A DNA stretch of 29,342 nucleotides, taken from a virus. Positions 568-27,701 of the stretch are shown in pieces; position 1 is the stretch's first letter; each line of letters begins with the position of its first letter. Position numbers and translations under genes: made by a program. The notes beneath the pieces were generated by a model. It ran no database searches, was not told the origin of the DNA, and was given only the letters and a program-made list of their open reading frames with translations. Location of the stretch: positions 1-29,342 of the IMG/VR virus record IMGVR_UViG_3300030012_003403; one strand, given 5' to 3'.

Positions 568-1221
568 TTACTTCTTTTTAGCTTTTTTAATTTTTCTTTT
601 TGGTCGTCTTTTCATAGGCATACCACCAGCGTATTGCATACCAGCGCTAGCTACGTTTCCAATACCACTCATAATCATAGCGTTATTATCAGCTACCATT
701 TGTTGATTAGCCGCTGTCTCACCCATACGCATACCTAGTATAGTTTCGTCTCTTGCTAACTCTCTTTGCTGTCTTGAGGCTTCACCTGCAGCTCTTTGTG
801 ATTGTACGCTAGCGGCGCCTTGAGCTTTCATACGTTCGTTAGCAGCTTCTTGCTGACCTATACTAGCTGAAGCTCTAGCAGCATCTTGTGTAGATTTATT
901 TGCCATAGCTTGAGCAAGACCTGCAATACCAGAGCTACCAGCGGCACCTTTTAAGTTACCCATTATATCTGCTTGAGCTTGTTGATTTTGCCTAGCTTCA
1001 AACTCTGCTTGCTGTGTATTTACTTGTAAGTCTTCAAAAGTGTTTTCTAAATCTTCGTATGGATTAGTTATTTCTTGATCTTGAAAAGCTTGTAAAGCTT
1101 CTTCTTGAGCAGCTTTAGCTGCTTCTAACTCATCTTTAAGTTTTTTTCTTCTGCTTAACCCAATACCTATTTGAGCTAAACCAGCTGCCGCACCTATTAT
1201 TGCTACTGTTGCAAATGCCAT
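568..1221 (-). CDS. Ala/Gln-rich putative internal virion (ejection/cargo) protein
   Basis: This 217-residue protein starts with a hydrophobic Ala/Gly/Ile segment (about residues 2-22), followed by SRRKKLK. A long low-complexity helical region rich in Ala, Gln and Glu comes next, with strong coiled-coil character. Near residue 190 is a second small hydrophobic Gly/Ala/Met stretch. The C-terminus is extremely basic (KRRPKRKIKKAKKK). One short hydrophobic end plus a long Ala/Gln-rich helix is typical of ejection proteins and internal cargo proteins of podovirus-like phages, and the position after the tail genes fits. The basic tail could contact packaged DNA. The function is inferred from composition and context; no catalytic motif is visible. 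Confidence 0.75.
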   Translation of the reverse strand: MAFATVAIIGAAAGLAQIGIGLSRRKKLKDELEAAKAAQEEALQAFQDQEITNPYEDLENTFEDLQVNTQQAEFEARQNQQAQADIMGNLKGAAGSSGIAGLAQAMANKSTQDAARASASIGQQEAANERMKAQGAASVQSQRAAGEASRQQRELARDETILGMRMGETAANQQMVADNNAMIMSGIGNVASAGMQYAGGMPMKRRPKRKIKKAKKK

Positions 1222-1222
1222 A

Positions 1223-1696
1223 TTATTGTTTTTTAATGTATTGTTCGTACTCTTCGTAGTCTTTAGCTACGTTATATTTTTCGAGCTCTATTAAGTCTTG
1301 AGTATTACTAGGATTTGGATGTATATTAATAAATATAGTATCTTCAAGAGCTAATATAACTCTTTTACTACCGCCAGGCGAAACTACGTAGCAAGGAGCT
1401 TCGTACTCTTCTGTTTTATCTTCTGTAGCCACACTAATACAACCTTGCAGTAAAAACCAAACATGTTCTCTTTTATGTATCTTGCCTACAACAGCAGTGT
1501 CTTTAGGCATATACATTTGTCTAACATACACACCATCTGCAAAAGTGTGCTCTAGTGGCGCTAGCTTATTACCAAGACCGTTGTTATCGCCAGCTACAAT
1601 ATTACTATCGTTGGCTGCAGACAATAAGTCTTCTTCAAGCTTTTGTATTTTACTTCGCATAGCTAGCGTACGCTCAGTTTTCTGTAATTCACTCAT
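1223..1696 (-). CDS. Cupin-like beta-barrel protein
   Basis: This 157-residue protein has a charged helical N-terminus (about 1-45) and then a beta-rich domain. The segment GKIHKREHVWFLLQG (residues 71-85) resembles cupin motif 1, with His74 and His78 as possible metal ligands. YVVSPGGSKRVI (about 103-114) resembles motif 2, but its usual histidine is Arg112. A further histidine (His126) closes the barrel in FINIHP. Small cupin proteins occur beside the tail genes of many uncultured marine phages; their role is not established. It could be a structural barrel on the tail or a small metal-binding enzyme. The gene lies between the small structural gene and the putative ejection protein in the minus-strand unit. 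Confidence 0.8.
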   Translation of the reverse strand: MSELQKTERTLAMRSKIQKLEEDLLSAANDSNIVAGDNNGLGNKLAPLEHTFADGVYVRQMYMPKDTAVVGKIHKREHVWFLLQGCISVATEDKTEEYEAPCYVVSPGGSKRVILALEDTIFINIHPNPSNTQDLIELEKYNVAKDYEEYEQYIKKQ

Positions 1697-11049: not shown

Positions 11050-12573
11050 TTACTTCATTAACATAAAGTTGTTAGCACCTTGAGTAACTAAACATCTTTC
11101 AGATAAGAAGTGAATTTGCATTGCATCTAAAGCAGACGTAGCAGCTCCAACTGAACCAGTAGTCCAAGTTTTCATTCTACGATCATCTGTTTGAGAAGCT
11201 CTGTATCGAACGTGTAAGAAAGGACGCTTAAGGTTCTTTCCTAATTGCTGATCGTATACAGTTGAAGTACCAGCGGGAATAATGACTCCACGGATAGCGT
11301 TAGCACCAGCCGCGTCGTTAATACCACCACGAGTAGCTTTATCGTTTAAGTAACGGAAATCAGACTTATAGAAGTCATAAGAACCTCTTCTGAATCCAGA
11401 GAAACCTAAATTTAAAGCCATATCTTCGTCGTTCTCAAATACACCGTAAGATGTACCACCAGCACCGTAAGAGTTCATAGAAGCTAACATATCGTCAAAC
11501 GCTAAAGATGTAGCACGGTTAACGAATAACATGTTTTCTTCAATAGCACCTTGAGAGTCAAACTCAGCAAGTATTGCGTCAAACTCAGCTAAATCACTAG
11601 CAGCGTTAACACCAGTAACACCAGTAGTAACATTACCTCTTGATTCAATAGCAGCAAATAAACCTTCAGTACCGTACTGAGTAGCTCCACCAGCAATAAC
11701 TTGATCGTTAGCATCAAGTAAAGTGTTTGAACCATCTGCAGCTGATTTTTCAGACTCAAGCATAGACATTTCTAAGTAATCATTGAAACGAGCTCTTGTG
11801 TCAGATTCAGCTTTTAAGTACCATAAGTAACCAGACTGTCCTTCTTCGCCAGTAATCTCAACCCAACCAATACGAGATGTATCAGATCCTGATACTTCGT
11901 AGTAGTCTTTCATAATGATAGGCTTGTTAGTGAAAGTTTGAAATCTTGGCTCGTTAGCACCTCTTCCTTCAGCAGTAGCATCTCCAGCCGCAGCATTGTA
12001 AGAAACACCTTTGCCAAACTCAGAACCGTAAACTAAAATAGTAGTTTCTTGATTACCAGTAGTAGATAAAGTGTCAGCTTTGTAAGGTGAAACGTCAATA
12101 ACGTCTGTAGCTACTTTTGTTACTACAGCTTTAACAACGTTATTAGTAGCGTCAGCAATAATAATAGTGTCATTAACTCTAATACCATGTCTTACCTCTC
12201 CAGTATGACTGTTAGAGATACCTGCGTTATCAGAATCAGCTCCGTCAATATCAGACTGAATTGTAAGCTGTGAACTTGAGTTAAGACCACCTGTAGCGCT
12301 TGATACTTTACCTTTGTAAGATAAGTGTAATCTACCTTGCTCAGACCAAATAACTTGATCAGAAGTCATAGCCTCTTCCGCTCCGATTTTAGATAAAAAA
12401 CCTGAAATGGTACGAGGACCAAATACTTCAGCTTCTTTTTCCATTAGATCGGGCAGGTATTGTTGCGACCAGTTTGTGCCAGACGCAGTAAAGTCTAAGT
12501 AGTTTGTAGCTAGCGCTTGCTTCATAGGAGCTGGAACGCTGTTTAACAAACCACCGGGATTTGAAATTGCCAT
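11050..12573 (-). CDS. Major capsid protein (crAss-like, HK97 fold)
   Basis: This is a 507-residue protein. The N-terminus (PAPMKQALATNYLDF, then YLPDLMEKEAEVFGPRTISGFLSKIG) and the central GYLWYLKAESDTRARFNDYLEMSMLESE (about residues 246-273) are like the major capsid proteins of crAss-like phages, which have the HK97 fold with extra domains. The region around residues 370-415 (SYGAGG.SYGVFENDEDMALNLGFSGFRRGSYDFYKSDFRYLND) also fits that family. The length agrees with the roughly 490-510 residues usual there. The gene follows an acidic scaffold gene and is followed by a strong terminator, as expected for the most abundant virion protein. No separate protease gene is visible in the window. 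Assembly may involve the phage GroEL/GroES; that is inference. Confidence 0.9.
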   Translation of the reverse strand: MAISNPGGLLNSVPAPMKQALATNYLDFTASGTNWSQQYLPDLMEKEAEVFGPRTISGFLSKIGAEEAMTSDQVIWSEQGRLHLSYKGKVSSATGGLNSSSQLTIQSDIDGADSDNAGISNSHTGEVRHGIRVNDTIIIADATNNVVKAVVTKVATDVIDVSPYKADTLSTTGNQETTILVYGSEFGKGVSYNAAAGDATAEGRGANEPRFQTFTNKPIIMKDYYEVSGSDTSRIGWVEITGEEGQSGYLWYLKAESDTRARFNDYLEMSMLESEKSAADGSNTLLDANDQVIAGGATQYGTEGLFAAIESRGNVTTGVTGVNAASDLAEFDAILAEFDSQGAIEENMLFVNRATSLAFDDMLASMNSYGAGGTSYGVFENDEDMALNLGFSGFRRGSYDFYKSDFRYLNDKATRGGINDAAGANAIRGVIIPAGTSTVYDQQLGKNLKRPFLHVRYRASQTDDRRMKTWTTGSVGAATSALDAMQIHFLSERCLVTQGANNFMLMK

Positions 12574-12601: not shown

Positions 12602-13786
12602 TTAGTTTCTTTTTTTAAATTTAAACGAAGGCGTATCATCACCTAATACTCTTACTTTAATTCCACCTGTGCTTTCATTACTAAAAGACTGTCTAGCATC
12701 CATATTTACATTTTTTGCATTAGCAACAGAATCTTGTATAGCGTCAGCTTTACCTTGTTCGTAAAAGTGTCTAGCGATAACGTCTGGATTCATAGCAGCA
12801 TATAAAGCTTTGTGATAACCTTCAATGTCTTTAATAGTATTATCTTTGTTTAAAAACTTATTGATAAAATTATTAATGTCACTTTGTTTTCTCGCAACTT
12901 CACTTGGATTAGGTACTTTAACATTTAATTTTTTACCATCGACATTGTATTCAAAACCTTTGAAATTGTCGTTTAAAACTTGATTAGTTTTGTTGATAAA
13001 ATAATCAGAACGTTCTTTTGCTAATTGCTCCTGTGCTTCCACGTCTTCGTTATATTGATTAAAGAACTGTATCGCCTCTTGCTGCTCGGCAGTAAGATTT
13101 GACCCTGCTTTAATCTCGTCATAATACTTAGACTTTTGCCCGTCTAAATAGGCTTTAGCCTCTGCAACCTGCTCTTTTAAGGCTATTTTCTTTCTACGTA
13201 TTTCTCTTTCTTCGTCAACTTCTTCGTCAAACTTAAAGTTTTCTTCCATAAGAAATTGTCGTTCCTCAGCGTCTAAGTGAGGCTTAGTTGTTCTATAATA
13301 TTCGTCAAGCGCTGTTAAATTATCCATTTCTTCATAGTTACGGTTTAATCTAACATAATCTTCTACGCTTCCGCCAGTATCGTTCACAAAGTCAACTAGC
13401 TTTTGTATATTTTCTGGTAATGCCTGACCAGTAGCTTCAGCTTTATCTATAGCTGCGTTAGCTGCATCAACAGTGTTACTTACTTCTTCTTGGACACTTT
13501 GTTCGGCAACTTCTTCATTTGTTGCTTCGACGTTTTCTTCGCGTACTTCTTCGCTAACTCCGGATTCGTCGCGAACAGGTATCTCATCTGTGTTTTGCTC
13601 CTGAACGGCATTTTCTAATTCGTTTATTTTGTTCATATCAAGAACAATAGTACCGTCTTCTCTATAAGACACTGGCGACTCTTGTTCTACTACTTCTTCT
13701 TGTGGCTGCTCTTCTTGCGGTTGTTCCACTTGTTCTTCATTAGGCTCTACGCCTTGAACTTCTTCAATGTTTTCGTTTTCTTCCAT
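12602..13786 (-). CDS. Acidic scaffolding-type protein
   Basis: This 394-residue protein has a first 110 residues that are almost entirely Glu, Gln, Val, Asn and Pro (for example EEVQGVEPNEEQVEQPQEEQ). Long charged helices follow (about 150-260; DAEERQFLMEENFKFDEEVDEEREIRRKK), and the C-terminus is basic (PSFKFKKRN). An acidic, elongated, coiled-coil-rich protein coded directly between portal and capsid genes is the classic position and make-up of a capsid scaffold. The basic C-terminal tail resembles the capsid-binding end of other scaffolds such as that of P22. There is no Ser-His or Ser-Lys protease motif, so a fused head protease is unlikely. No homologue can be named from sequence alone. 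Confidence 0.8.
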   Translation of the reverse strand: MEENENIEEVQGVEPNEEQVEQPQEEQPQEEVVEQESPVSYREDGTIVLDMNKINELENAVQEQNTDEIPVRDESGVSEEVREENVEATNEEVAEQSVQEEVSNTVDAANAAIDKAEATGQALPENIQKLVDFVNDTGGSVEDYVRLNRNYEEMDNLTALDEYYRTTKPHLDAEERQFLMEENFKFDEEVDEEREIRRKKIALKEQVAEAKAYLDGQKSKYYDEIKAGSNLTAEQQEAIQFFNQYNEDVEAQEQLAKERSDYFINKTNQVLNDNFKGFEYNVDGKKLNVKVPNPSEVARKQSDINNFINKFLNKDNTIKDIEGYHKALYAAMNPDVIARHFYEQGKADAIQDSVANAKNVNMDARQSFSNESTGGIKVRVLGDDTPSFKFKKRN

Positions 13787-16249: not shown

Positions 16250-18466
16250 TTAATTTTTAATTATTGTCGATGAATAACCATCGTTTTTATATCTAGCAAT
16301 ATTTATGTTTACTTTTGGTCTTTCTATTTTAGCGTTTGGCGCGTATAAATGTCTGTTGCAAGCCATTATAGCTAAACCAGAACTTATAGATGCATCAAAC
16401 TTAGTTCTTTTATTTATATCAAACTTAGCCCAATCGTTCAACGTGTCATTAAAATACATCGAACCATATCTACCATTTTCTATGTGGCCAACATGATCGT
16501 TGATATACATCTCAATAGCAGCAGCATGAGCTTGTTTTATATCTTCGCTAGAGTTAGGTATACCACCTACTTCTTTTTCAGCAACAGATAATTTATTCCA
16601 AACTTTGTCAGGTCTATTCATACTAAATCCTCTATAACCTCTACGTCTCAAATAATATAGTAATCTTGGTTTGTTGTTCTCTGCAAGCAAAGGCATACCA
16701 TAAAATACTAGCGCCATTAATACATCTTCAAAAAACATTTCAGCTGTTTGTGGTCTAGCTATATATTCTAGAAAAAAAGCGTTAGCAGGAGCATCTTCCA
16801 TTGAAAACTTTGTTAATCCATGAAGAGATCCGTTGGATCCTCGACCATCAACAGTACCGCTAATATCATAACTATCGCAGCCAAAAGCGCCCATATGCTC
16901 ATTTCCAGGATATTTTATTCCGTTCTTAATTATAACTTTGTTCTGTAGGTGTGGCTGAGGTGTCCAAGATATTTTAAATCTACCTTGTGGGTTTGGGTGG
17001 AATATTACATGGGTATCTTTAACTCCGTTAGCCCACTGAAAATTACCAGTGTTAATAACTGCAGAGCTAGTTATTCCTTCGTTGTAATCTATTTGTTCGT
17101 ATATCTTAACTAAATTAAATATACTATTTTTTGTCTCATCTCTAAATGCATGTTCTTCAGTTCTTGGAAACTGCCTATAAAACTCGTTTAACGCATCTTG
17201 ATCTGACTTTAATCCTTCAACTTCATTTTCCCAATGATCAATAACCCCTTGATCTATCAATTCACCGTGTGGTCCGTATACATCATCGCTAGGGTTATTA
17301 AATGTAGGTTGTCCGTATTCGTCAATAAATCCTTCAAAGTTCCATTCCATTGGCATAAACAAAGAATATAAGCCAGACTTTGTTTGTCCATTTCTATTTC
17401 TACTTGTGACGTCTGAGTCATTGTATAGTTTTTTAAAGTTATCACCGCCTTTGTCTAACGAGTTACTTGTAGAACCCATCATGCACTTGCCAACTATACG
17501 AGCACCTAGCCTTAAACAAGTTTTAGTTACTCGCCAGTTGTTTAGAATATTATCAGGTCTTTCCCACTTACCACTTTCATCGTGAACTAGCAAGTTAAGC
17601 TTTTCACCGTCATAGCTGTTGTCACCAGTGTTTTTCCAATCAATAGTAGTGTCAAGTCCAACCAGCTCTTCCTGCTTTTCGTTTGCAGTAATTTTTTTAC
17701 GCGTAAACTTACTTGCAGGAACTCTATAAGCAAGTTCACTTTTAGGTCTGTCCATACCGTCTTGTATCGGTTTAAAGAAAAACGGATAGTTAACAGATAT
17801 TGGCACCACTTTATCGGTAAACATTTTTTTAGCATCAGCACCACTTTTAGATAGTATTCCATATCTAGCATCACTCGATATTGTGGCTAAGTTAACAGTT
17901 TCAGCTGAGCTCATAAATGAAAAACCACTACGTCTGTTTTTTAAATAACACATACCGTAGCATCTACTATCAGCTTTACAAGCTTCCCAAAATATAAAGA
18001 ACAGTCTGTTAGCTTCTCTAAAATCTGGAGCGCCAACATCAATTTTACTCCATTGCAAATACATATAGTGACTACCTGTTATATACGTAGGCTTATTGTT
18101 ATTATAAAACCAAAAGCCTTCATCACGACGCTTAAACTCTTCGTCTATATAATCGTACCACTGTTCTTTTGCTTCTTCAGGGTACGACCTCCAGTCAAAT
18201 ATATTTTTTAGCTTGCTTAACTCTTTAGGGTATTCTACTTTTTGCCATTTGTTTTTGTCAAACATATGCACTCGTGTCGGTTCAGCCGGCAACCCAATTC
18301 GCAAACCTTGAATCTCCACCACTTGTCCAATTTTTCCAGTTTTGCTAATAATGACAATATCGTTTTCTTTATCATATCCATATTTCCATAGACGTTTTTT
18401 GTTAAGTCGACTTATAGTAGTCTTCTTAACCGGTTCAACAATTTTATATAGTGTTTGTTCGTACAT
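16250..18466 (-). CDS. terL: Terminase large subunit (packaging ATPase/nuclease)
   Basis: This is a 738-residue DNA-packaging motor. The ATPase domain shows a deviant Walker A at about residues 174-186 (YLKNRRSGFSFMS) and Walker B NLLVHDES at 291-298, with Asp296 followed by catalytic Glu297. A likely coupling motif, MMGSTSN, begins at residue 329. The RNase H-like nuclease domain shows GCDSYDISG (Asp531), LLAENNK (Glu596) and KFDASISSGLA (Asp691), the expected acidic triad. The N-terminal 120 residues are an extra domain, also seen in crAss-like terminases. The ATG overlaps the TAA of the upstream small gene (TAATG), so the pair is probably co-translated. The portal follows after 2 nt. Confidence 0.92.
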   Translation of the reverse strand: MYEQTLYKIVEPVKKTTISRLNKKRLWKYGYDKENDIVIISKTGKIGQVVEIQGLRIGLPAEPTRVHMFDKNKWQKVEYPKELSKLKNIFDWRSYPEEAKEQWYDYIDEEFKRRDEGFWFYNNNKPTYITGSHYMYLQWSKIDVGAPDFREANRLFFIFWEACKADSRCYGMCYLKNRRSGFSFMSSAETVNLATISSDARYGILSKSGADAKKMFTDKVVPISVNYPFFFKPIQDGMDRPKSELAYRVPASKFTRKKITANEKQEELVGLDTTIDWKNTGDNSYDGEKLNLLVHDESGKWERPDNILNNWRVTKTCLRLGARIVGKCMMGSTSNSLDKGGDNFKKLYNDSDVTSRNRNGQTKSGLYSLFMPMEWNFEGFIDEYGQPTFNNPSDDVYGPHGELIDQGVIDHWENEVEGLKSDQDALNEFYRQFPRTEEHAFRDETKNSIFNLVKIYEQIDYNEGITSSAVINTGNFQWANGVKDTHVIFHPNPQGRFKISWTPQPHLQNKVIIKNGIKYPGNEHMGAFGCDSYDISGTVDGRGSNGSLHGLTKFSMEDAPANAFFLEYIARPQTAEMFFEDVLMALVFYGMPLLAENNKPRLLYYLRRRGYRGFSMNRPDKVWNKLSVAEKEVGGIPNSSEDIKQAHAAAIEMYINDHVGHIENGRYGSMYFNDTLNDWAKFDINKRTKFDASISSGLAIMACNRHLYAPNAKIERPKVNINIARYKNDGYSSTIIKN

Positions 18467-20555: not shown

Positions 20556-20750
20556 TTATTTTTTTCTTTTTTTGTTAATATATTCAGGGTGAAAAATACC
20601 TCTAACGTGGTCCATTTTAGCCTCAACGTTATGCTCTATTCTATTTTCTTCTTCTTCTTTGTTTCGGTCTGTTTTCTTTTTATTAGCTACTGGACCGACT
20701 GGAGCTTTAAAAGGAAAATCATTACGTTTGTATTTCATTTTAAATCCCAT
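20556..20750 (-). CDS. Small basic protein with MAFKMK-like start (MGFKMK)
   Basis: This 64-residue, highly charged protein begins MGFKMKYKRNDFPFKAPVGP, a variant of the MAFKMK start shared with five other genes here. The middle is KKTDRNKEEEENRIEHNVEAK and the C-terminus is EYINKKRKK. It has no hydrophobic core, so it is probably disordered or bound to another component. It lies 1 nt downstream of the holin stop. The shared start suggests it belongs to the same set of co-packaged or co-targeted small proteins; that is inference. Confidence 0.65.
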   Translation of the reverse strand: MGFKMKYKRNDFPFKAPVGPVANKKKTDRNKEEEENRIEHNVEAKMDHVRGIFHPEYINKKRKK

Positions 20751-20751
20751 T

Positions 20752-21174
20752 TTATTTTTCTTTTATTTGTTCGTTTTTCTTTGAGCTTCCACCGAAGAAG
20801 AAGTCTATTATTGTATTTACTTTAGCACTCATAGCACCAAATATTGTTGATATAAAGCTTATTTCAAACTCGCCTAAGTTTATAGACTTTGTTACAAAGT
20901 AATTAAACATTACAAATGTAATACCGAAATATGCTACAGTAAATAGCGTTGCTAATACTTTTTGAATAATAGCATCGTCTTTATACATATCACGCGCAGA
21001 CTTACGATCTTCAACTTCTTTTGCAAAAGCTTCTTTTTCTGCATCGAGAAGTAGTTTTTTAAGAGCAAGCTTTGCTTCGTCTCTTTCTTTGTCTGTCGTA
21101 ATTACTTTGTCAAGTATACCTTCGGCATTATCTACGATCTTGCCAAATAAGCCTCCTACTAAGTTGTTTATCAT
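20752..21174 (-). CDS. Holin (3-TM GTA-holin type)
   Basis: This is a 140-residue protein. After an amphipathic N-terminus and a helix rich in Glu, Lys and Ala (about 25-60), DRKSARDMYKDDAIIQKVLA leads into a hydrophobic segment at about 72-95 (TLFTVAYFGITFVMFNYFV). A second weaker hydrophobic segment lies at about 103-128 (FISTIFGAM...TIIDFFFGG). The tail SSKKNEQIKEK is basic. The charged linker RxSARxMY before the first membrane helix and the FFGSS-K end are typical of the holin family known from gene transfer agents and many marine phages. It would form the membrane lesion at the end of infection. No endolysin gene is adjacent in this window. Confidence 0.78.
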   Translation of the reverse strand: MINNLVGGLFGKIVDNAEGILDKVITTDKERDEAKLALKKLLLDAEKEAFAKEVEDRKSARDMYKDDAIIQKVLATLFTVAYFGITFVMFNYFVTKSINLGEFEISFISTIFGAMSAKVNTIIDFFFGGSSKKNEQIKEK

Positions 21175-21728
21175 TATTTTGGGTTTGATAAATAAAATCT
21201 AGCACCAGCTTCTGCAAGATCAGAGTCTTCTTGCATAACAACATATTTTCTATTAGTACCAGACTCTAGTTTAATTTTACTTAAGTTACTTTCGTCTATA
21301 TTATTAGTGTTTATTTTCTTTCCATCAGCATCGTATAAAAAATCTGGCATACCAGCTCCAGTAAATTGACCTACTTTAGTTCCTTGTCCAGGCCCTTTAT
21401 CTTCTTTTAGCTTCATTGCAGAATGTTTAAGTTCATGAGCTCTTGCTCTTTTATTTTTACGTTGTGCTTTTTTAATCTCTCTTTTGCTTCTAAACTCATC
21501 AGTACCTTCAAAAGTTGGTTCTGGTCTTTGTAATCCTGGTAGCAACTTATCTTCAAGTTTACTCATCTTGTCGATTTTTCTCTGGGCTTTTCTATCTTTG
21601 CCCTGTCTGTTAGCGTCTTCAGCTTTATCTTGAAGCTTGTTCATGCGCTTAATTATTCTGTTTTGTTTTCTTTCGCTAACCTCTTTAGCTAATTTAGCCA
21701 TTGAAGCGTTCTTCATTTTAAATGCCAT
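21174..21728 (-). CDS. MAFKMKN-tagged basic helical protein
   Basis: This 184-residue protein begins MAFKMKNASMAKLAKEVSER. A very basic helical region (about 15-110) is rich in Lys, Arg and Gln (QNRIIKRMNKLQDKAEDANR, KKAQRKNKRARAHELKHSAM). The C-terminal 70 residues are a less charged domain (GQFTGAGMPDFLYDADGKKI; YVVMQEDSDLAEAGARFYLS). HELKH formally matches HExxH but sits in a Lys/Arg helix without other support. The stop overlaps the holin start. It is probably a virion-associated DNA-binding or cargo protein by composition; this is not demonstrated. Confidence 0.7.
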   Translation of the reverse strand: MAFKMKNASMAKLAKEVSERKQNRIIKRMNKLQDKAEDANRQGKDRKAQRKIDKMSKLEDKLLPGLQRPEPTFEGTDEFRSKREIKKAQRKNKRARAHELKHSAMKLKEDKGPGQGTKVGQFTGAGMPDFLYDADGKKINTNNIDESNLSKIKLESGTNRKYVVMQEDSDLAEAGARFYLSNPK

Positions 21729-21730
21729 AG

Positions 21731-22087
21731 TTATTCTGCTTTTTTAGCTCTTTGTTCCCAAGGAAACACCATGCTACCTTCTTCGTGGAACTTACCGTTG
21801 TACTTTATTTTACCGTCTTTTCTTGGATATGTTTTACCTTTGTATCTAACGTAATCATCTCCATATGACAAACCTATTTTAGGATCTGCCATATCTTTTA
21901 AATGTTGTTTTTCATGGCGTATAGCTCTTTTTTCAAGAGCACTACCAGGCTTAACATTTTTATTTATAAATATAGATCCATCTAAGTTAGCTTCTGCTAC
22001 AATACCTTTATCTAGCTTTTTTCTAAATATAGGTGTTGTTTCTGAATTTTTTATACCTCTTTTTTCGTTACCTAACTTAAACGCCAT
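21731..22087 (-). CDS. MAFKL-tagged small HExxH protein, possible metallopeptidase
   Basis: This is a 118-residue protein with the start MAFKLGNEKRGIKNS, a variant of the local MAFKMK tag. A small domain follows: IVAEANLDGSIFINKNVKPG, then the helix ALEKRAIRHEKQHLKDMADP with an HExxH-type zinc-site motif (HEKQH, about residues 58-62), then GDDYVRYKGKTYPRKDGKIK and the end FHEEGSMVFPWEQRA. Helix-HExxH-helix after a short sheet resembles minimal zincin-like proteases, and residues such as the His/Glu in FHEEG could be third ligands. It may act on virion proteins or the host wall. The size is small for a peptidase, so it may be a non-catalytic relative. Confidence 0.7.
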   Translation of the reverse strand: MAFKLGNEKRGIKNSETTPIFRKKLDKGIVAEANLDGSIFINKNVKPGSALEKRAIRHEKQHLKDMADPKIGLSYGDDYVRYKGKTYPRKDGKIKYNGKFHEEGSMVFPWEQRAKKAE

Positions 22088-22091
22088 ACTA

Positions 22092-22352
22092 TTATTTCAT
22101 TGAGCCCATGCCGTAAGGCGTTGTTGCTTTAGTTGCTTCTCTTATAGTTTTGTGATCTTTGTGAAGCTTAGTGTGGGCTTTTTTTAGGTGTTTTACACCT
22201 TTAGCAATAGCTCCAATACCTCCTGGCGCTGTACCCATATTTCCTTTTGCGCGTTTACGTTCAGCTTCTGTCATAGGTCGTGTAGCTGCTATATCTTCTT
22301 TTTTCATAGGTGAGTTTCCAAACCCACTAAACTTTTTCATTTTAAATGCCAT
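22092..22352 (-). CDS. MAFKMK-tagged small basic protein
   Basis: This is an 86-residue protein, Lys/His/Gly-rich, with the start MAFKMKKFSGFGNSPMKKED. The helix TEAERKRAKGNM is followed by a Gly/Ala stretch GGIGAIAKGVKHLKKAHTKL and HKDHKTIREATKAT. The central Gly-Ile-Gly-Ala run with flanking Lys resembles a short membrane-active or DNA-binding helix. The ATG overlaps the TAA of the previous gene (TAATG). Function unknown; it belongs to the MAFKMK set. Confidence 0.65.
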   Translation of the reverse strand: MAFKMKKFSGFGNSPMKKEDIAATRPMTEAERKRAKGNMGTAPGGIGAIAKGVKHLKKAHTKLHKDHKTIREATKATTPYGMGSMK

Positions 22353-22792
22353 TATCTATTTGGATCTTTAATCATATCGTCAATAGCCTTGTTAAAGACT
22401 TTATCTGTATATGTTTTGTTATTGTAGAATACGCTACGATCTGATACTGGCATGTCTTCTTCTCCGAGTAAGATACGGTATATTCTACTTATAAGTTGGC
22501 TGCATTTAAATGAAGTTTTAAAAACGCTGTACTTAATCGTTGTTCGATTTCGATGACGCCACACTTCTATCCAGCCTAGTTTTCTTAGTTTATCCCAACG
22601 TTTCTTATCCCAACTCATAGTATAAGTACCGTCTATAAACTCTTGTCTTGTAAACCGACCTTGACAGTCTAAGAATATTAGTAATTCAAGCTCGGCATCT
22701 GTTAACCCGTAAGTCTTACAAGCCCACTTTCTAGTGAGCCTGTAATACTTTAGGATTTGTAATTCACGTAAATCGTGAGAGGTTAATCTCAT
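22352..22792 (-). CDS. Winged-helix (MarR-like) putative DNA-binding protein
   Basis: This is a 146-residue protein. The helix-rich first half (LRELQILKYYRLTRKWACKT, YGLTDAELELLIFLDCQGRF, TRQEFIDGTYTMSWDKKRWD, KLRKLGWIEVWRHRNRTTIK, YSVFKTSF) follows the order dimerisation helix, helix 2, helix-turn-helix and beta wing of MarR-type winged-helix proteins. The wing would be WIEVWRHRNRTTIKYSVF. The second half (KCSQLISRIYRILLGEEDMP, VFYNNKTYTDKVFNKAIDDM) is a C-terminal extension. Closely similar proteins are common in uncultured marine Bacteroidota phages among late genes. It may be a late regulator or a structural DNA-binding protein, and may act on the palindromes near 27720. Confidence 0.7.
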   Translation of the reverse strand: MRLTSHDLRELQILKYYRLTRKWACKTYGLTDAELELLIFLDCQGRFTRQEFIDGTYTMSWDKKRWDKLRKLGWIEVWRHRNRTTIKYSVFKTSFKCSQLISRIYRILLGEEDMPVSDRSVFYNNKTYTDKVFNKAIDDMIKDPNR

Positions 22793-22795
22793 TTA

Positions 22796-23170
22796 TTACG
22801 AGTCGATAGTAATAGCTACTCCTGAAATAGTTGGCATACCAGCCGCTGTAATACTTTCAGTTAAGTCAACAACAGTATGCATTTTACCTCCGTGAGGGTG
22901 AGCGTTTAACAAGCTTGATATAGCGTTAGCTATTTGTTGACATTTGTGACCAGCAATATCTGCTTGATCGTCAAGTACTGTAGCTGAGTTTAAATGTGTT
23001 AAAACAACTTTATCAACGCCATCACCAACACCAGTTTGACCTTCAAAGTAAACTTCTGTAGTAGTAGCTGAAGCAGGGCTTACTCCAATAAATCTTGAAG
23101 CTGGCCACATACCTGCGTCGCCTGTAGCATCTGCTCCATCGCCGTCTGAGAAATATAAATAATTTTCCAT
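22796..23170 (-). CDS. Beta-rich protein, paralogue of the neighbouring 144-residue protein
   Basis: This 124-residue protein begins MENYLYFSDGDGADATGDAG. It shares a frame of motifs with the upstream gene: YLYF near the start, an A.(M/R)..(A/S).(F/Y)(I/L)G.(N/S)P segment, a THLN/TIAT strand, a helix with ..IANAISSLLNAHPHGGK against ..MRALVEIMNSNPNKANN, and a final VVDLTE against VVADAE. The two therefore look like tandem duplicates. The helix plus beta layout and position point to a virion surface protein. No enzyme motif is seen. Confidence 0.7.
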   Translation of the reverse strand: MENYLYFSDGDGADATGDAGMWPASRFIGVSPASATTTEVYFEGQTGVGDGVDKVVLTHLNSATVLDDQADIAGHKCQQIANAISSLLNAHPHGGKMHTVVDLTESITAAGMPTISGVAITIDS

Positions 23171-23196
23171 TTTTCTATTTTTTATTTAGTTACAAA

Positions 23197-23631
23197 TTAA
23201 GCGATTGCCACGCCAGTTACATTACCTTTAAACGCTTTGTGATAAACAGGAGTTTTAGTTCCAAATACAGCTGGAGAGTACGATGTACCAGCACCACCTG
23301 TAGCTGTAGTAAGTTCTTTAGCCGTTGTATCTTCTGCGTCTGCTACAACTATTACCCCGTTGTTAGCTTTATTAGGGTTAGAGTTCATGATTTCAACTAA
23401 AGCTCTCATTACCTCTTTGTGAGTGTCAGTTGCGATTGTTAAGGTTACAGTGTTTACTGTATCAGTACCTACTACATCTGCAAATGATAAAACTAAAGTA
23501 GTATCACCAGTTGGGTTAGCTCCTAAATAAGAGTTGGCCGGCACCATGATGGCTTCAGTTGTTGTTGCTACTTCTGCTTCCGCGAAGTATAAGTAAGGGC
23601 CTTTAGCCCCGATTGTTACTGCACTTGCCAT
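23197..23631 (-). CDS. Beta-rich virion-type protein (tandem paralogue)
   Basis: This is a 144-residue protein with PYLYFAEAEVATTTEAIMVP, SYLGANPTGDTTLVLSF and HKEVMRALVEIMNSNPNKAN. It is the longer member of a tandem pair with the gene at 22796-23170. Its extra C-terminal 30 residues (AGTSYSPAVFGTKTPVYHKA) are absent from the partner. Thr/Val/Ala-rich strands and lack of charge fit a structural protein, perhaps a head decoration or minor capsid component. The 79-nt AT-rich gap upstream, after groES, contains no visible hairpin. Confidence 0.7.
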   Translation of the reverse strand: MASAVTIGAKGPYLYFAEAEVATTTEAIMVPANSYLGANPTGDTTLVLSFADVVGTDTVNTVTLTIATDTHKEVMRALVEIMNSNPNKANNGVIVVADAEDTTAKELTTATGGAGTSYSPAVFGTKTPVYHKAFKGNVTGVAIA

Positions 23632-23710
23632 TTTGTTTTAATTTTTTAAGTGATTAATAAATAATTTGTTTTAGATTTTGTGTTTAAGGATTATGGTTTA
23701 TAGTTTATGT

Positions 23711-23968
23711 TTAATCTACTAGTACAATATCACTTGCCTTTATGACAAAATAAAGTTTATCTTTAAAATGTATACCGTGACCAGCGTGTTTGTCGTAATA
23801 AACTACGTCACCGTCTTTTATAAATTCTATTAAATTGCCAGCAGATATAACTTTACCTTTTAAATATCTGTTGTCTTCATCTAAGTCTTCTGTCATAATA
23901 AGACCTGCAACTTTTTTTTGCTCAGTCTTTATTTTATCTACGATAACGTAATGATTAACTGCCTTCAT
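23711..23968 (-). CDS. groES: Co-chaperonin GroES (phage-encoded)
   Basis: This 85-residue protein would cap the chaperonin ring. It shows the GroES order: NHYVIVDKIKTEQKKVAGLI with the mobile-loop hydrophobic segment GLIMTEDLD (about 22-30), the LKGKVISAGN strand, a shortened roof (IEFIKDGDVVYYDKHAGHGI) and the closing YFVIKASDIVLVD. It is about 12 residues shorter than bacterial GroES (about 97), mostly because the roof hairpin is reduced. Its ATG lies 14 nt inside the end of groEL, so the order is groEL then groES, opposite to the bacterial groES-groEL operon. It probably works with the phage GroEL on virion proteins. Confidence 0.9.
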   Translation of the reverse strand: MKAVNHYVIVDKIKTEQKKVAGLIMTEDLDEDNRYLKGKVISAGNLIEFIKDGDVVYYDKHAGHGIHFKDKLYFVIKASDIVLVD

Positions 23969-25526
23969 CTACTCTAGCGTTTGATATTACACAGTCTGCA
24001 GAAACGATAGTCATAACAACACTCACTGCATTTTTAAGTGCTGACTTAGTTACAAGTACAGGATCTATAATACCTTCTTCTACCATGCTAACTTCTTCGC
24101 CAGTTACAACATTAACACCTATACCTTCTTCGCTTGGAGAAGCTATAACGTTAAATCCAGCGTTAGCCATAATAGTTTTAAACGGTGATTTAATAGCTTC
24201 AAGCAATGCTTCTTCGCCCACGTTAGTGGGTTCGATTTTTTCTGAAGCATTAAAGAGTGCTATACCACCTCCAGGTACTATACCTTCTTTTAGCGCAGCC
24301 TTCGTAGCGTAAATAGCATCCTCGATCCTGTCTTTCTTTTCTTTAAGCTCCACCTTCGAGTTTGCCCCAACACGGATAATTCCAACACTACCCGATAACA
24401 TAGACAGTCTTTGCTCCAGTTTCTTTTTAATAAAACCATTTTTTTCATCTGCAACCATTTTAGCTACCTGATCTATACGCTCAGATATATCTTCGTTTAA
24501 TTCTTCTATAGTAGTTATTACAGTAGTCTTATCGTCTGTAGTGGCAAACTCAGCTTCACCTAAACAATCAGGCTTCATAAGATCTAAATCATCACCTAGT
24601 TCTTCGTTCATGACTGTGGCGCCTGTTAGTATAGCAAGATCTTCACATGTATCTTTTTTAGTAGGGCCAAAGCCTGGTAAGTCTACGATGTTTACTTTAA
24701 TATTACCTTTAACTTTATTCATCATAAGTGTAGCTTTAACAGGTTGAGCCACTGGAGCTACAATTAATAATGCTCTATTATTCTTTATAGCATGTTCTAA
24801 TATGCTTTGTATCTTACGTACGTTAGGTATTTCACTCATGCATATAAATACTAACGGATTATCAAGCTCACACTTGTGTTTATCTTTGTTAGTTACAAAG
24901 TTTGGTGACGTAAGACCACAGTCTATTTGTACACCGTCTACTACTTCTACGTAAGTTTCTTCAGTTTCTGACTCTTCCATGAGTACTACACCGTCTTTAC
25001 CTACAGTTTTGTACGCTTCGGCTATAATATCGCCAAGAGTAGCGTCATTATTACACGATATAGCAGCAACATGTTGTAATGTTTCGTCAGTTACGTCTAT
25101 TTTTACTGAATTTAGGTAGTCATTGACTTTTTTTAGGCCAGAATTAACGCCATCTCGCAGAACACGAGAGGCGGAGTCCTCAAATTTAGGTGAATTTACT
25201 GTATTTAGCAAGGACTCGGCTAACACAGTTGCAGTTGTAGTACCATCGCCGGCTTCTTTAACTGTGTTTTTAGCAGCTTCTTTAATAAGTGTAGCGCCGA
25301 TATTCTCAACTGGATCGTAAAGAACTACACTTTCTGCAACGGTTACACCGTCTTTTGTAATAACTGGCATACCTCTTGCATCTTCGTAGATTACGCACTT
25401 ACCAGAGGCGCCTAATGTTGATTTAACTGCGCTGGCTAACTTGGTTACACCAGCTGTAATTTTGGTTTTAGCGTCCTCACCAAAGTTTAATTCTTTGATG
25501 AGGAGACTAGGATTGTTGTACTCCAT
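23955..25526 (-). CDS. groEL: Chaperonin GroEL (phage-encoded)
   Basis: This 523-residue group I chaperonin retains the ATP-site motifs TKDGV (Asp59, matching E. coli Asp52), GDGTTTATV (Asp94, matching Asp87) and RIEDAIYATKAALKEG followed by VPGGG (Asp equivalent to 398). The apical domain keeps PGFGPTKKDTCEDLAILTGA. The protein is about 25 residues shorter than E. coli GroEL because it lacks the C-terminal Gly-Met tail, ending NARVDEGS. All catalytic positions are present, so an active ring is likely. It is followed by groES with 14 nt overlap. The upstream leader is a pentamer-repeat AAATT tract without Shine-Dalgarno sequence. It would fold phage structural proteins such as the capsid protein; this is inferred. 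Confidence 0.95.
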   Translation of the reverse strand: MEYNNPSLLIKELNFGEDAKTKITAGVTKLASAVKSTLGASGKCVIYEDARGMPVITKDGVTVAESVVLYDPVENIGATLIKEAAKNTVKEAGDGTTTATVLAESLLNTVNSPKFEDSASRVLRDGVNSGLKKVNDYLNSVKIDVTDETLQHVAAISCNNDATLGDIIAEAYKTVGKDGVVLMEESETEETYVEVVDGVQIDCGLTSPNFVTNKDKHKCELDNPLVFICMSEIPNVRKIQSILEHAIKNNRALLIVAPVAQPVKATLMMNKVKGNIKVNIVDLPGFGPTKKDTCEDLAILTGATVMNEELGDDLDLMKPDCLGEAEFATTDDKTTVITTIEELNEDISERIDQVAKMVADEKNGFIKKKLEQRLSMLSGSVGIIRVGANSKVELKEKKDRIEDAIYATKAALKEGIVPGGGIALFNASEKIEPTNVGEEALLEAIKSPFKTIMANAGFNVIASPSEEGIGVNVVTGEEVSMVEEGIIDPVLVTKSALKNAVSVVMTIVSADCVISNARVDEGS

Positions 25527-25556
25527 TTGATTTAATTTAATTTAATTTATTTGAGT

Positions 25557-25853
25557 TTATTTATTGAAGGTTTTCACTACTTTTGGGCCTTTTGTGGCTT
25601 CTAGTTTCTTGCTAAAGTGCTCGATGCTACCATCAATTGCAGATTCAGCGCCTTCTAAAGTTTCTCTACGCGTAACATCTGACCACTTATCGTCATCTTC
25701 AGGGTGATTAACTTCAGTTTGGTAATAACCGTTAGGCAATTGTACTATACGCCAGTTTTCTTTGTTGGCTAAGTGCTTCCATTGCTCTTTGGTTTTGTCG
25801 TTTACTTGTGGATTACCGGTCCACGTACTAGTTTTGTAATACAAATACGTCAT
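25557..25853 (-). CDS. Conserved unknown, 98 residues
   Basis: The protein begins MTYLYYKTSTWTGNPQVNDK, continues with KEQWKHLANKENWRIVQLPN and YYQTEVNHPEDDDKWSDVTR, and ends with a helical, Glu/Lys-rich segment (AESAIDGSIEHFSKKLEATK). Tyr/Trp-rich strands followed by a helix suggest a small folded domain. It lies just before groEL in the transcription unit and may share its expression. I do not recognise a named family, though the start resembles small proteins of marine Bacteroidota phages. Confidence 0.65.
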   Translation of the reverse strand: MTYLYYKTSTWTGNPQVNDKTKEQWKHLANKENWRIVQLPNGYYQTEVNHPEDDDKWSDVTRRETLEGAESAIDGSIEHFSKKLEATKGPKVVKTFNK

Positions 25854-25888
25854 TTTAATTGGTTTTATTTATTGGTTAATAATTAGTT

Positions 25889-26968
25889 TTAAAATTTTGC
25901 TGTAACGCTAGGCTTTCTTAGTTTTTTACCAGTCTGCTTTACAGGCTTTACTTTATTGTTTTTAAGTGCTGGCTGTTGAACCCCTTTAGGATTTTTAGGT
26001 TTTTGCTCTTTACGAACTGCTTTTACCATCGTCATCGGGCTTTCTACTCCAGCTTTTCCTAGCTTTTTAGCTGCCTTTCTTCTTTTTCTATCGCCTCTCT
26101 TTGAAGTATCGCCAGCTGCTTTTCTCATTTTTCTTTCTGCTGCAGCTATTTTTCTAGCGCCTCTACCACCTTCTCTTTTAATAGCTGTTATTTGATCAGC
26201 TGTACTAGGTTTTCTAGGAGTTGTTACTTTAGCTAATTTATTACCTTTTTCTCCGCCCTCTCTACGAGCTATTTTTTTAGGTTTAGCTAACTTTTCTAAC
26301 TCTTTTCTATCTCCGCCAGTAAACTTGTCCGCCGCTTTAGTAGGCTCAGTTGTTCCGTACTTTTTTTGATTATAACGCTTAGCTTTACTTATAAAATCTT
26401 CTTTGCTTTCAAACTTACTTTTTTGCGCTTCGGTCATATCGTTCCAAGCTTGGCTGTAAGTTTTTTTTACTGGACTATCATCTTTCATTTTAGCACCAGA
26501 CTTCATATCATTAGCACCTTTACCGTCTACAGCAAAATCAGGGACCATCTTGCCATCAGGACCTTTTACCATGTTCATCTTTTGCTTAGCAGGTGAAGGT
26601 TTTTTTAACTTAGTAGCTGATTTATGACCCATCTTCATAGAAGATTCTTTTTTCATTTTCATTGGCTCACCTTTTTTCATTTTCATTGGCTCACCTTTCT
26701 TCATCTTGCTTGGCGCAGCTTCAATTGCTTTCTTTAAACCTTCGTTTAAATTTTTCTGATTACCAACAAGTTCTTTCTCCATAGGAGACTTTTTCATCTT
26801 CATGGCAGCTTTTTCTTTTAGCTTAGCCATAGACTCTTTTTTCATTTTCATTGCAGCTTCTTTTTTCATTTTAGCTGCTGATTCCATCTTCATCTTCATA
26901 GCTACACGGTTATCACCCGCTGCTTTAGTAAGCTTAGCCATAGATGGATTTTTCATTTTAAATGCCAT
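25889..26968 (-). CDS. Extremely Lys/Met-rich MAFKMKN-tagged basic protein
   Basis: This is a 359-residue protein. It begins MAFKMKNPSMAKLTKAAGDN. The first 135 residues are built from short KMKK and MKKES/MKKGEP units, including a perfect 8-residue repeat KMKKGEPM (24-bp tandem repeat near 26650-26700). A middle segment (YSQAWNDMTEAQKSKFESKE, then DFISKAKRYNQKKYG) looks folded. The last 150 residues are again Lys/Arg-rich (GRGARKIAAAERKMRKAAGD, KRGDRKRRKAAKKLGKAG). The overall charge is very positive, so DNA or RNA condensation inside the head, like histone H1-like or internal proteins, is a reasonable inference. No enzymatic motif is present. Confidence 0.75.
   Translation of the reverse strand: MAFKMKNPSMAKLTKAAGDNRVAMKMKMESAAKMKKEAAMKMKKESMAKLKEKAAMKMKKSPMEKELVGNQKNLNEGLKKAIEAAPSKMKKGEPMKMKKGEPMKMKKESSMKMGHKSATKLKKPSPAKQKMNMVKGPDGKMVPDFAVDGKGANDMKSGAKMKDDSPVKKTYSQAWNDMTEAQKSKFESKEDFISKAKRYNQKKYGTTEPTKAADKFTGGDRKELEKLAKPKKIARREGGEKGNKLAKVTTPRKPSTADQITAIKREGGRGARKIAAAERKMRKAAGDTSKRGDRKRRKAAKKLGKAGVESPMTMVKAVRKEQKPKNPKGVQQPALKNNKVKPVKQTGKKLRKPSVTAKF
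26650..26705 (-). repeat. 24-bp tandem repeat in the basic protein gene
   Basis: TTCATTGGCTCACCTTT and its flanks repeat with a 24-bp period (GGC at 26664 and again at 26688) and encode two in-frame copies of KMKKGEPM, followed by a degenerate third (KMKKESSM). The unit is in frame, so copy-number change would not break the gene. Confidence 0.8.
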
Positions 26969-26993
26969 TGTTTTGTTTTTTTAAATTACGTAA

Positions 26994-27701
26994 TTATTTT
27001 TCTCCACCTTGTCTAGACTTATATTCTGCTGAAAGCTTCTTATCTTCTAAGGCATCTAACATTTTATAAGTGATAGGTCTTCCGTTGTATGTCGGTTGTC
27101 CTTTGCTATTAAATTTAATCTGATATTCTCCCTCATAGCCAAATGCATGCTGCGAAAATAAATCAACAAGCTTTCTCTTTTGATCTGCTTGGCTAAGATA
27201 ATTAGATTTAATGACATCGTTTGGTTTTCCACTGTCAAAACCTTCCGCTTCAATTATATTAGCATCTGCTTTTATCTCTCTATCTGTTTTTGCTCCTGGA
27301 GGTGTTGTTTTTTCTCTGTCTTTCTGAGTCTCTTTATAGTCAGTTACATCTTCACCTGTAAGAACTATTTTACTCTCGTAAGCGTCTTCATTATATCCTG
27401 GCGCGTCTTCACCGCCTCCGGTACGACCTATGTTCATTTCAGTTACATTTGTGCCTTTAGTATCAATTGAAGGCTTTGTGCCACCGTATTTTTCTCTATA
27501 CTCAGCGTCAGACATGTTTCTAATATCTTCAAACTCTTCTTTAGATATTTCTCTTCTTGTTTCTTCTCCCGTAACTGCGTCTACGTTGAACAGCTGTATA
27601 TCAGTTCTCTTTAGTGCTGACTTCATCTTCATAGCGGCTCTAGGATCTCCTGCCATTTTAGCGGCTGCACCCATCATAGGGTTTTTCATTTTAAATGCCA
27701 T
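26994..27701 (-). CDS. MAFKMKN-tagged protein, first gene of the minus-strand block
   Basis: This is a 235-residue protein with the start MAFKMKNPMMGAAAKMAGDP. After a basic, Met/Ala-rich 30 residues comes an acidic and charged region (NVDAVTGEETRREISKEEFE; MSDAEYREKYGGTKPSIDTK). A Gly/Asp/Glu-rich middle follows (EMNIGRTGGGEDAPGYNEDA), then a C-terminal segment FGYEGEYQIKFNSKGQPTYN ending KSRQGGEK. It is the gene nearest the divergent intergenic region, so it is likely the first gene of this block. No known domain is visible. Its start leader is TATAACTTAAAAAAAATATAAA, without a Shine-Dalgarno sequence. Confidence 0.7.
   Translation of the reverse strand: MAFKMKNPMMGAAAKMAGDPRAAMKMKSALKRTDIQLFNVDAVTGEETRREISKEEFEDIRNMSDAEYREKYGGTKPSIDTKGTNVTEMNIGRTGGGEDAPGYNEDAYESKIVLTGEDVTDYKETQKDREKTTPPGAKTDREIKADANIIEAEGFDSGKPNDVIKSNYLSQADQKRKLVDLFSQHAFGYEGEYQIKFNSKGQPTYNGRPITYKMLDALEDKKLSAEYKSRQGGEK

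Follow-up and report, generated by a model that had tools for sequence, protein, structure and literature searches.

The virus record IMGVR_UViG_3300030012_003403 of IMG/VR, a linear record of 29,342 bases with terminase, portal and capsid genes, was analysed over its whole length (the window). Six of its genes, all on the minus strand, open with the short peptide MAFKMK or a close variant, here called the tag. The tag is real, N-terminal and general, and occurs mainly within the group of phages related to the window. In the reading preferred here, which is held with about even confidence, it acts at the peptide level as a sorting tag, most likely loading small basic proteins into the phage head. 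MAFKMK and a following SPxK would then form a short movable sorting peptide of uncultured marine Bacteroidota phages, which brings a fast-changing set of small basic accessory proteins into the head as it assembles. The tag may dock there at the same site as the conserved FKFKIK-type tail of a scaffold-like protein, which is a more specific version of head loading.

The tag and its carriers

The six genes and their motifs are as follows.

26994..27701, minus strand: tagged gene 1, 235 residues, beginning MAFKMKNPMM; tag MAFKMK at 27684-27701
25889..26968, minus strand: tagged gene 2, 359 residues, lysine-rich with internal MKMKK repeats, beginning MAFKMKNPSM; tag MAFKMK at 26951-26968; start resembling that of gene 1
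22092..22352, minus strand: tagged gene 3, 86 residues, beginning MAFKMKKFSG; bipartite start MAFKMKKFSGFGNSPMKK
22302..22313, minus strand: SPMK motif read from the sequence, residues 14-17 of tagged gene 3
21731..22087, minus strand: tagged gene 4, 118 residues, beginning MAFKLGNEKR (MAFKLG variant); HEKQH at residues 58-62 and PWE at 109-111, in a predicted zincin-like domain
21174..21728, minus strand: tagged gene 5, 184 residues, beginning MAFKMKNASM; tag MAFKMK at 21711-21728
20556..20750, minus strand: tagged gene 6, 64 residues, beginning MGFKMKYKRN; variant MGFKMK at 20733-20750

The first-pass annotation of this DNA had listed these six starts and a near repeat of the DNA beneath them, and both are confirmed. 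The 20-mer ATGGCATTTAAAATGAAAAA is exact at 27701, 26968 and 22352, with one mismatch at 21728, two at 20750 and more at 22087; the pattern ATGGCNTTYAARATGAAR matches four times in the window, always at a tagged-gene start, and its reverse does not match at all. The same annotation had called the remaining sequences unrelated. This is true of the 86-residue, HExxH and 64-residue proteins (starts 22352, 22087 and 20750), whose likeness to the other three is limited to the first residues. It does not hold for the whole set, however: a longer start, judged by eye to span about 14 to 30 residues (MAFKMKNPxMAKLxKxAGD..), is common to the proteins starting at 27701, 26968 and 21728. None of the six had a clear match in Pfam or PHROGs, and tagged gene 1 had none at E < 0.05.

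A survey of related phages, which had been suggested as a check, found the tag well beyond the window. A simple script (ATG, longest open reading frame, at least 38 residues) served for gene calling in 17 related records, which were picked through tag or peptidase matches, are therefore biased toward the tag, and include some fragments. The window itself (G000) was left out of the counts because record G001, which stands in for it, is nearly identical. The strict motif M[AGSP][FY]K[MLI][KR] opens 55 of the 1118 called genes. Inside proteins it occurs with its methionine 0 times in 304,504 residues and without it six times, and shuffling residues 2-41 of each protein gives 0.045 starts on average. 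Thus, the tag is not a product of chance. The looser form M[AGSP][FY]K[ML] opens 73 genes, is represented in every one of the 17 records and occurs twice internally, and a scan of viral contigs with ATGGCNTTYAARATGAAR returned at least 120 stretches. Each of the 55 strict carriers shares its strand with the capsid gene, as do 692 of the 1118 genes overall; 45 are upstream of the terminase and 10 downstream of a large tail gene. Among 27 matches to a MAFKMKG pattern in cellular genomes, none appeared tag-like by eye over at most the first 80 residues of each, the least clear being a protein of 54 residues (L238). No account of the tag was found in the literature searched for motif variants or for wording on shared N-terminal or capsid-targeting sequences.

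Distinct, complete open reading frames of at least 40 residues with the strict tag were collected from the loci obtained and grouped by BLAST beyond residue 20. The 223 sequences form 102 families by body, of which 24 have at least two members and 78 are singletons, the latter including likely chance starts. The consensus, built from 94 of the tagged set, is MAFKMKG followed later by PxK and otherwise little else. SPxK is present at residues 7-45 of 28 of the 102 family representatives, compared with 1.1 expected by shuffling and with 20 of 1063 untagged genes, some of which are near-tag variants. The carriers are rather short (median 106.5 residues vs 127). In two BLAST components, similar bodies stand behind MAFKM-type, MAYxQKNNP-type and other starts, and a swappable module is therefore indicated. 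The second of these starts, in the form MAYxQKNNPFKK, is found on small proteins in 12 genes of 27 records: in L219 from about 3630 (record G001 43630) and in 11 genes elsewhere, several of them downstream of a giant gene.

Ninety-four family representatives were scanned against Pfam and PHROGs, eight of the 102 having been omitted on inspection as likely chance starts. Pfam gave nine families at E <= 0.01, the best being DUF5872 (two members) and DUF6321 (one). PHROGs gave 23 matches, comprising 20 without a named function, two to virion structural proteins (best 1.2e-06) and one to a tape measure. Tagged proteins at five loci (L019, L021, L024, L107 and L121) contain a Gly/Ala-rich stretch like IPVVGNVADAANTALSAGRAGY, which presumably resembles pre-toxin hydrophobic regions.

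The carrier at 21731-22087 was examined in more detail. HExxH and PWE are invariant in 19 of 19 aligned proteins, and H58, E59 and H62 are the residues of the zinc motif. F3 and K4 are invariant as well, which is not independent evidence because 10 of the 19 were selected for carrying the tag. Of 17 relatives grouped by body BLAST in the fetched records, 15 start with M[AG][FY]K; the other two have MAFKLG at a later methionine and the start MANFKLG, respectively. The structure model of the 118-residue protein (predicted local distance difference test, pLDDT, 81.6) places the tag in a short low-confidence strand, followed by a disordered linker at residues 8-15 and a compact domain. Compared with small zincins in VIA-align, the domain scored Z 6.2 for IrrE, 4.5 for abylysin and 4.4 for selecase, and values of Z below 8 may reflect a mere common arrangement. 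MJ1213 was matched weakly by profile (E 0.033), as were the Pfam families DUF6782 (6 of 19) and M90 (2 of 19). Foldseek with the peptidase model gave nothing in the PDB at E <= 0.001 (best E 0.38) and one viral match at 8e-07, an uncultured-virus protein without a name. The domain is a candidate for a small zincin fold of the minigluzincin type, and any metallopeptidase activity is putative. The window protein had no tblastn match in phage records, and that of a relative weakly matched 13 records (E 0.002 to 0.7). Long tagged HExxH proteins occur at L042, L043 and L045 (457, 417 and 484 residues), all three with SPIK further on; the one at L043 also has a tag-like internal motif, LKFKLKGGSPF.

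The likely destination of tagged proteins

The first-pass annotation had compared the tag to a capsid-targeting or sorting signal. The strict position, the many families, the conservative replacements, the SPxK motif and the swapped starts bear out a movable N-terminal tag, and the capsid is the best inference for its destination. The likeness of the tag to a scaffold tail, the SPxK motif of a second protein, g1, its weak profile match to a protein annotated as detected by mass spectrometry, the late-gene position and the basic bodies all point to head loading. The features needed here are listed below.

12602..13786, minus strand: scaffold-like protein, encoded between the portal and capsid genes; C-terminal tail ending SFKFKKRN
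12614..12625, minus strand: FKFK motif read from the sequence, residues 388-391 of the scaffold-like C-terminal tail
568..1221, minus strand: g1, untagged in the window; SPxK near the N-terminus in relatives elsewhere (9 of 24)

The protein between portal and capsid may be called scaffold-like by its position and by a low-confidence helical prediction. In Panino its homologue is a hypothetical protein, in elemo and phi38:1 a structural protein (hhalign 100, 100 and 99%), the label of the phi38:1 homologue having been assigned by similarity; phi18:3 follows at 84%. The motif [FLMY][KR][FLMIV][KR] lies within the last 14 residues of 15 of 16 scaffold-like proteins and of 9 of 1102 others, a count that omits the window as a near-duplicate of G001; by eye it is also present in 10 of 10 further records. 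The tail is predicted to be disordered, in a poor model (pLDDT 56). The FKMK core of the tag fits the same pattern as this FKFKIK-type tail, and the scaffold-like protein of elemo starts with MFKMKLEG. In records G025 and G026, tyrosine occupies position 3 in 7 of 14 strict tags (2 of 41 elsewhere) and the scaffold tail reads MKLR; as this is one lineage, it was not counted.

The conserved scaffold tail suggests that the tag may copy the docking tail of the scaffold. In its full form, this proposal is a cargo code by scaffold mimicry, in which acquiring the FKxK tail as an N-terminal copy, followed by SPxK, would be enough for any late protein to be loaded into the head; in this form it is rather unlikely. 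If true, the phage could swap virion-delivered proteins freely, and the 24 multi-member carrier families would be head cargo, including the zincin-like and hydrophobic proteins. Scaffolding proteins of the P22 type offer a partial parallel. The scaffold-like protein here has a conserved basic-hydrophobic C-terminal tail. In P22-type proteins, however, the coat-binding end is folded and helical, whereas the present tail is predicted to be disordered, and cargo tags that copy a scaffold tail are a proposal of the current work.

In g1, SP[MLAVIFTN][KRQ] lies near the start of 9 of 24 proteins, compared with 16 of 1236 other untagged proteins. Proteins at a like position gave weak profile matches in four of the five cultured phages examined (hhalign 69-82%), among them a phi18:3 protein annotated as detected by tandem mass spectrometry (81.7%, weak).

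A number of observations tell against head loading or its generality, as do the codon and start-context figures given in the next section. The likeness between tail and tag is a short pattern of lysine and hydrophobic residues and could be a coincidence; the strict tail form, judged by eye, is kept by two of five cultured scaffold-like proteins, and g1 had no match in ctfjg026. No experiment or virion proteomics on any tagged protein was found. The capsid family of the window is encoded by 39 of 50 records tested and by 28 of the 38 found through the tag pattern alone, so that it is absent from 10 of these 38. A sample selected by capsid, and thus less biased toward the tag, comprised 31 records of at least 20 kilobases from 80 loci; the tag pattern was present in only 8 of the 31, a share lowered by the omission of 3 of the 34 listed records of this length, which had already been found by tag or peptidase. 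This sample gave 19 tag-pattern matches and none for the reversed pattern. Ten of the 23 tag-negative records were fetched, of which seven begin at or close to the terminase gene; the other three include the upstream region. Fragmentation therefore accounts for many, not all, of the negatives; of the three, G096 has no tag, G084 has the variant MPFKQKG, and G105 has MGFKLG and MGYKMN. A pattern search found no tag gene in five cultured relatives; its sole match, ATGAAATACAAAATAAAA, was in phi18:3, and 2 were likewise obtained with the reversed control.

Sorting of the carriers to another place in the cell, such as the membrane, an assembly site or the phage's own chaperonin, is the strongest of the alternatives and is rather unlikely. 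All of the 17 related records have an annotated GroEL close to the tagged genes, in one case a partial one, and partners of this kind might be bound by a peptide of amphipathic character at the N-terminus. No link between the tag and chaperonin clients was found, however, and the capsid protein, a likely client, is untagged. Binding of DNA or the nucleoid by the basic FKMK...SPxK start, with localisation as its result, is less probable again. SPxK is reminiscent of SPKK, a DNA-binding repeat, and the carriers are rich in lysine (17% vs 8%). Yet the aromatic residue is kept at position 3 (of the 55 strict tags, 46 have F and 9 have Y there, the search pattern having demanded an aromatic), and the tag is also found on the zincin-like domain and on Gly/Ala-rich hydrophobic proteins, which would have no need for DNA.

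With head loading as the preferred reading, the closest known system is that of the T4 internal proteins. As described in the excerpted text of PMC9026906, these are small and basic, with N-terminal propeptides of 10-19 residues removed by the gp21 protease; ten residues of IPIII suffice for targeting, and the capsid targeting sequence was shown for IPIII and inferred for IPI and IPII. So far as that text goes, a short N-terminal peptide is shared in both systems by otherwise diverse proteins that are small, basic and produced along with the head. The present tag differs in its two motifs (FKMK and SPxK) and in its far more numerous and diverse carrier families. The T4 sequence is likened by description, and the tag is known here from sequence alone. 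If the inference of head loading is right, the tag works like a capsid targeting sequence; membership in that class is not claimed. Of the serine prohead-protease families, Peptidase S77 (PF03420) was found in 0 of 17 records, with the control genomes silent, and Peptidase S78 (PF04586) in 0 of 17, with the control positive in 4 of 14; in both cases the records may be incomplete.

The crAss-like phages are likewise phages of Bacteroidota that carry proteins inside the virion, and the part of PMC5332604 consulted groups phi38:1, a relative of the window phage, with IAS virus. The cargo proteins of phi-crAss001 named in the excerpts of PMC10172136 are large, at 60 to 277 kDa, and those excerpts mention no shared short N-terminal tag.

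If the tag is a packaging signal, a six-residue pattern would flag candidate virion cargo from sequence alone and locate many unannotated proteins. The group of uncultured marine phages with such candidates is large, the capsid search having given at least 600 matches. Another route of head targeting besides the T4 sequence would then be available, which could be useful for loading foreign proteins into capsids.

Peptide and DNA as possible objects of selection

The first-pass annotation had alternatively proposed a translation-start cassette. In such a cassette, an A-rich start would boost late translation and the peptide would be a by-product. This explanation, which is very unlikely as the whole account, finds part of its evidence at the level of the DNA. 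The 55 tags are encoded by 22 distinct 18-mers, and of 220 tag codons 190 are the ones most often used in start regions, compared with 165.3 expected (standard deviation 6.3); tests at single positions against start-region usage gave p 0.02 to 0.09 for A2, F3, K4 and K6. This uniformity exceeds what codon usage in start regions would predict, so that a contribution at the DNA level is possible; either recently copied tags or selection for an A-rich start could produce it. The information upstream of tagged genes is 12.8, compared with 9.1 (standard deviation 0.8) for untagged genes, and 0 of 500 samples were as high; A has a frequency of 0.85 at each of positions -3 and -12.

The A-rich context is stronger than that of untagged genes, but it does not exceed that of head and chaperonin genes, at 13.2 (standard deviation 0.8), a value inflated by shared ancestry. 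Among genes of the same records annotated as capsid, portal, scaffold-like, tail or chaperonin, none opens with the tag, which disfavours a pure start cassette. The replacements preserve the character of the peptide (A to G, S or P; F to Y; M to L; K to R), and SPxK is conserved further into the protein. Synonymous sites, which had been named as a test between peptide and expression signal, gave a divided answer: differences from the commonest 18-mer split evenly into 24 silent and 24 replacing, so that these counts, with the codons more uniform than expected, do not separate selection on the peptide from selection on the DNA.

That the carriers are simply old duplicates of one protein, with the start alone surviving, has just as little to recommend it: the longer start common to three of the six window genes and the BLAST component joining 38 tagged proteins, many of them lysine-rich, would suit it, but the 102 families of bodies, the predicted zincin-like fold of one carrier and the similar bodies behind different starts would not.

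Phage group and neighbouring genes

The window is a fragment from an uncultured phage related to those of Flavobacterium and Cellulophaga. The capsid protein it encodes shows 46% identity to that of ctfjg026 (Podoviridae sp.), 43% to that of Maribacter phage Panino and 38-39% to those of the Flavobacterium elemo phages; for the Cellulophaga phages, the values are about 33% (phi38:1) and 24% (phi18:3). The excerpted text of PMC5332604 describes a marine phage group including phi38:1, with GroEL in 36 environmental genomes of the group, and the window probably belongs there. The host phylum, judging from the cultured relatives, would be Bacteroidota. The landmark genes are given below.

11050..12573, minus strand: relative of the major capsid protein, which served to define the phage group
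13809..16247, minus strand: portal protein
16250..18466, minus strand: terminase large subunit
23955..25526, minus strand: phage GroEL-type chaperonin, within the tagged-gene cluster

GroEL and GroES genes together occupy 23711-25526 (minus strand) within that cluster. The product of 1223-1696 (minus strand) matches the short tail fibre and adhesin families of PHROGs. An open reading frame of 43 residues (MPFRSKTQMRYLF...) lies in another frame within the scaffold-like gene, at 13480-13611 (minus strand), and reading frames like it (MPFKSKAQMKACY...) overlap the giant gene in the cultured relatives L167 and L168.

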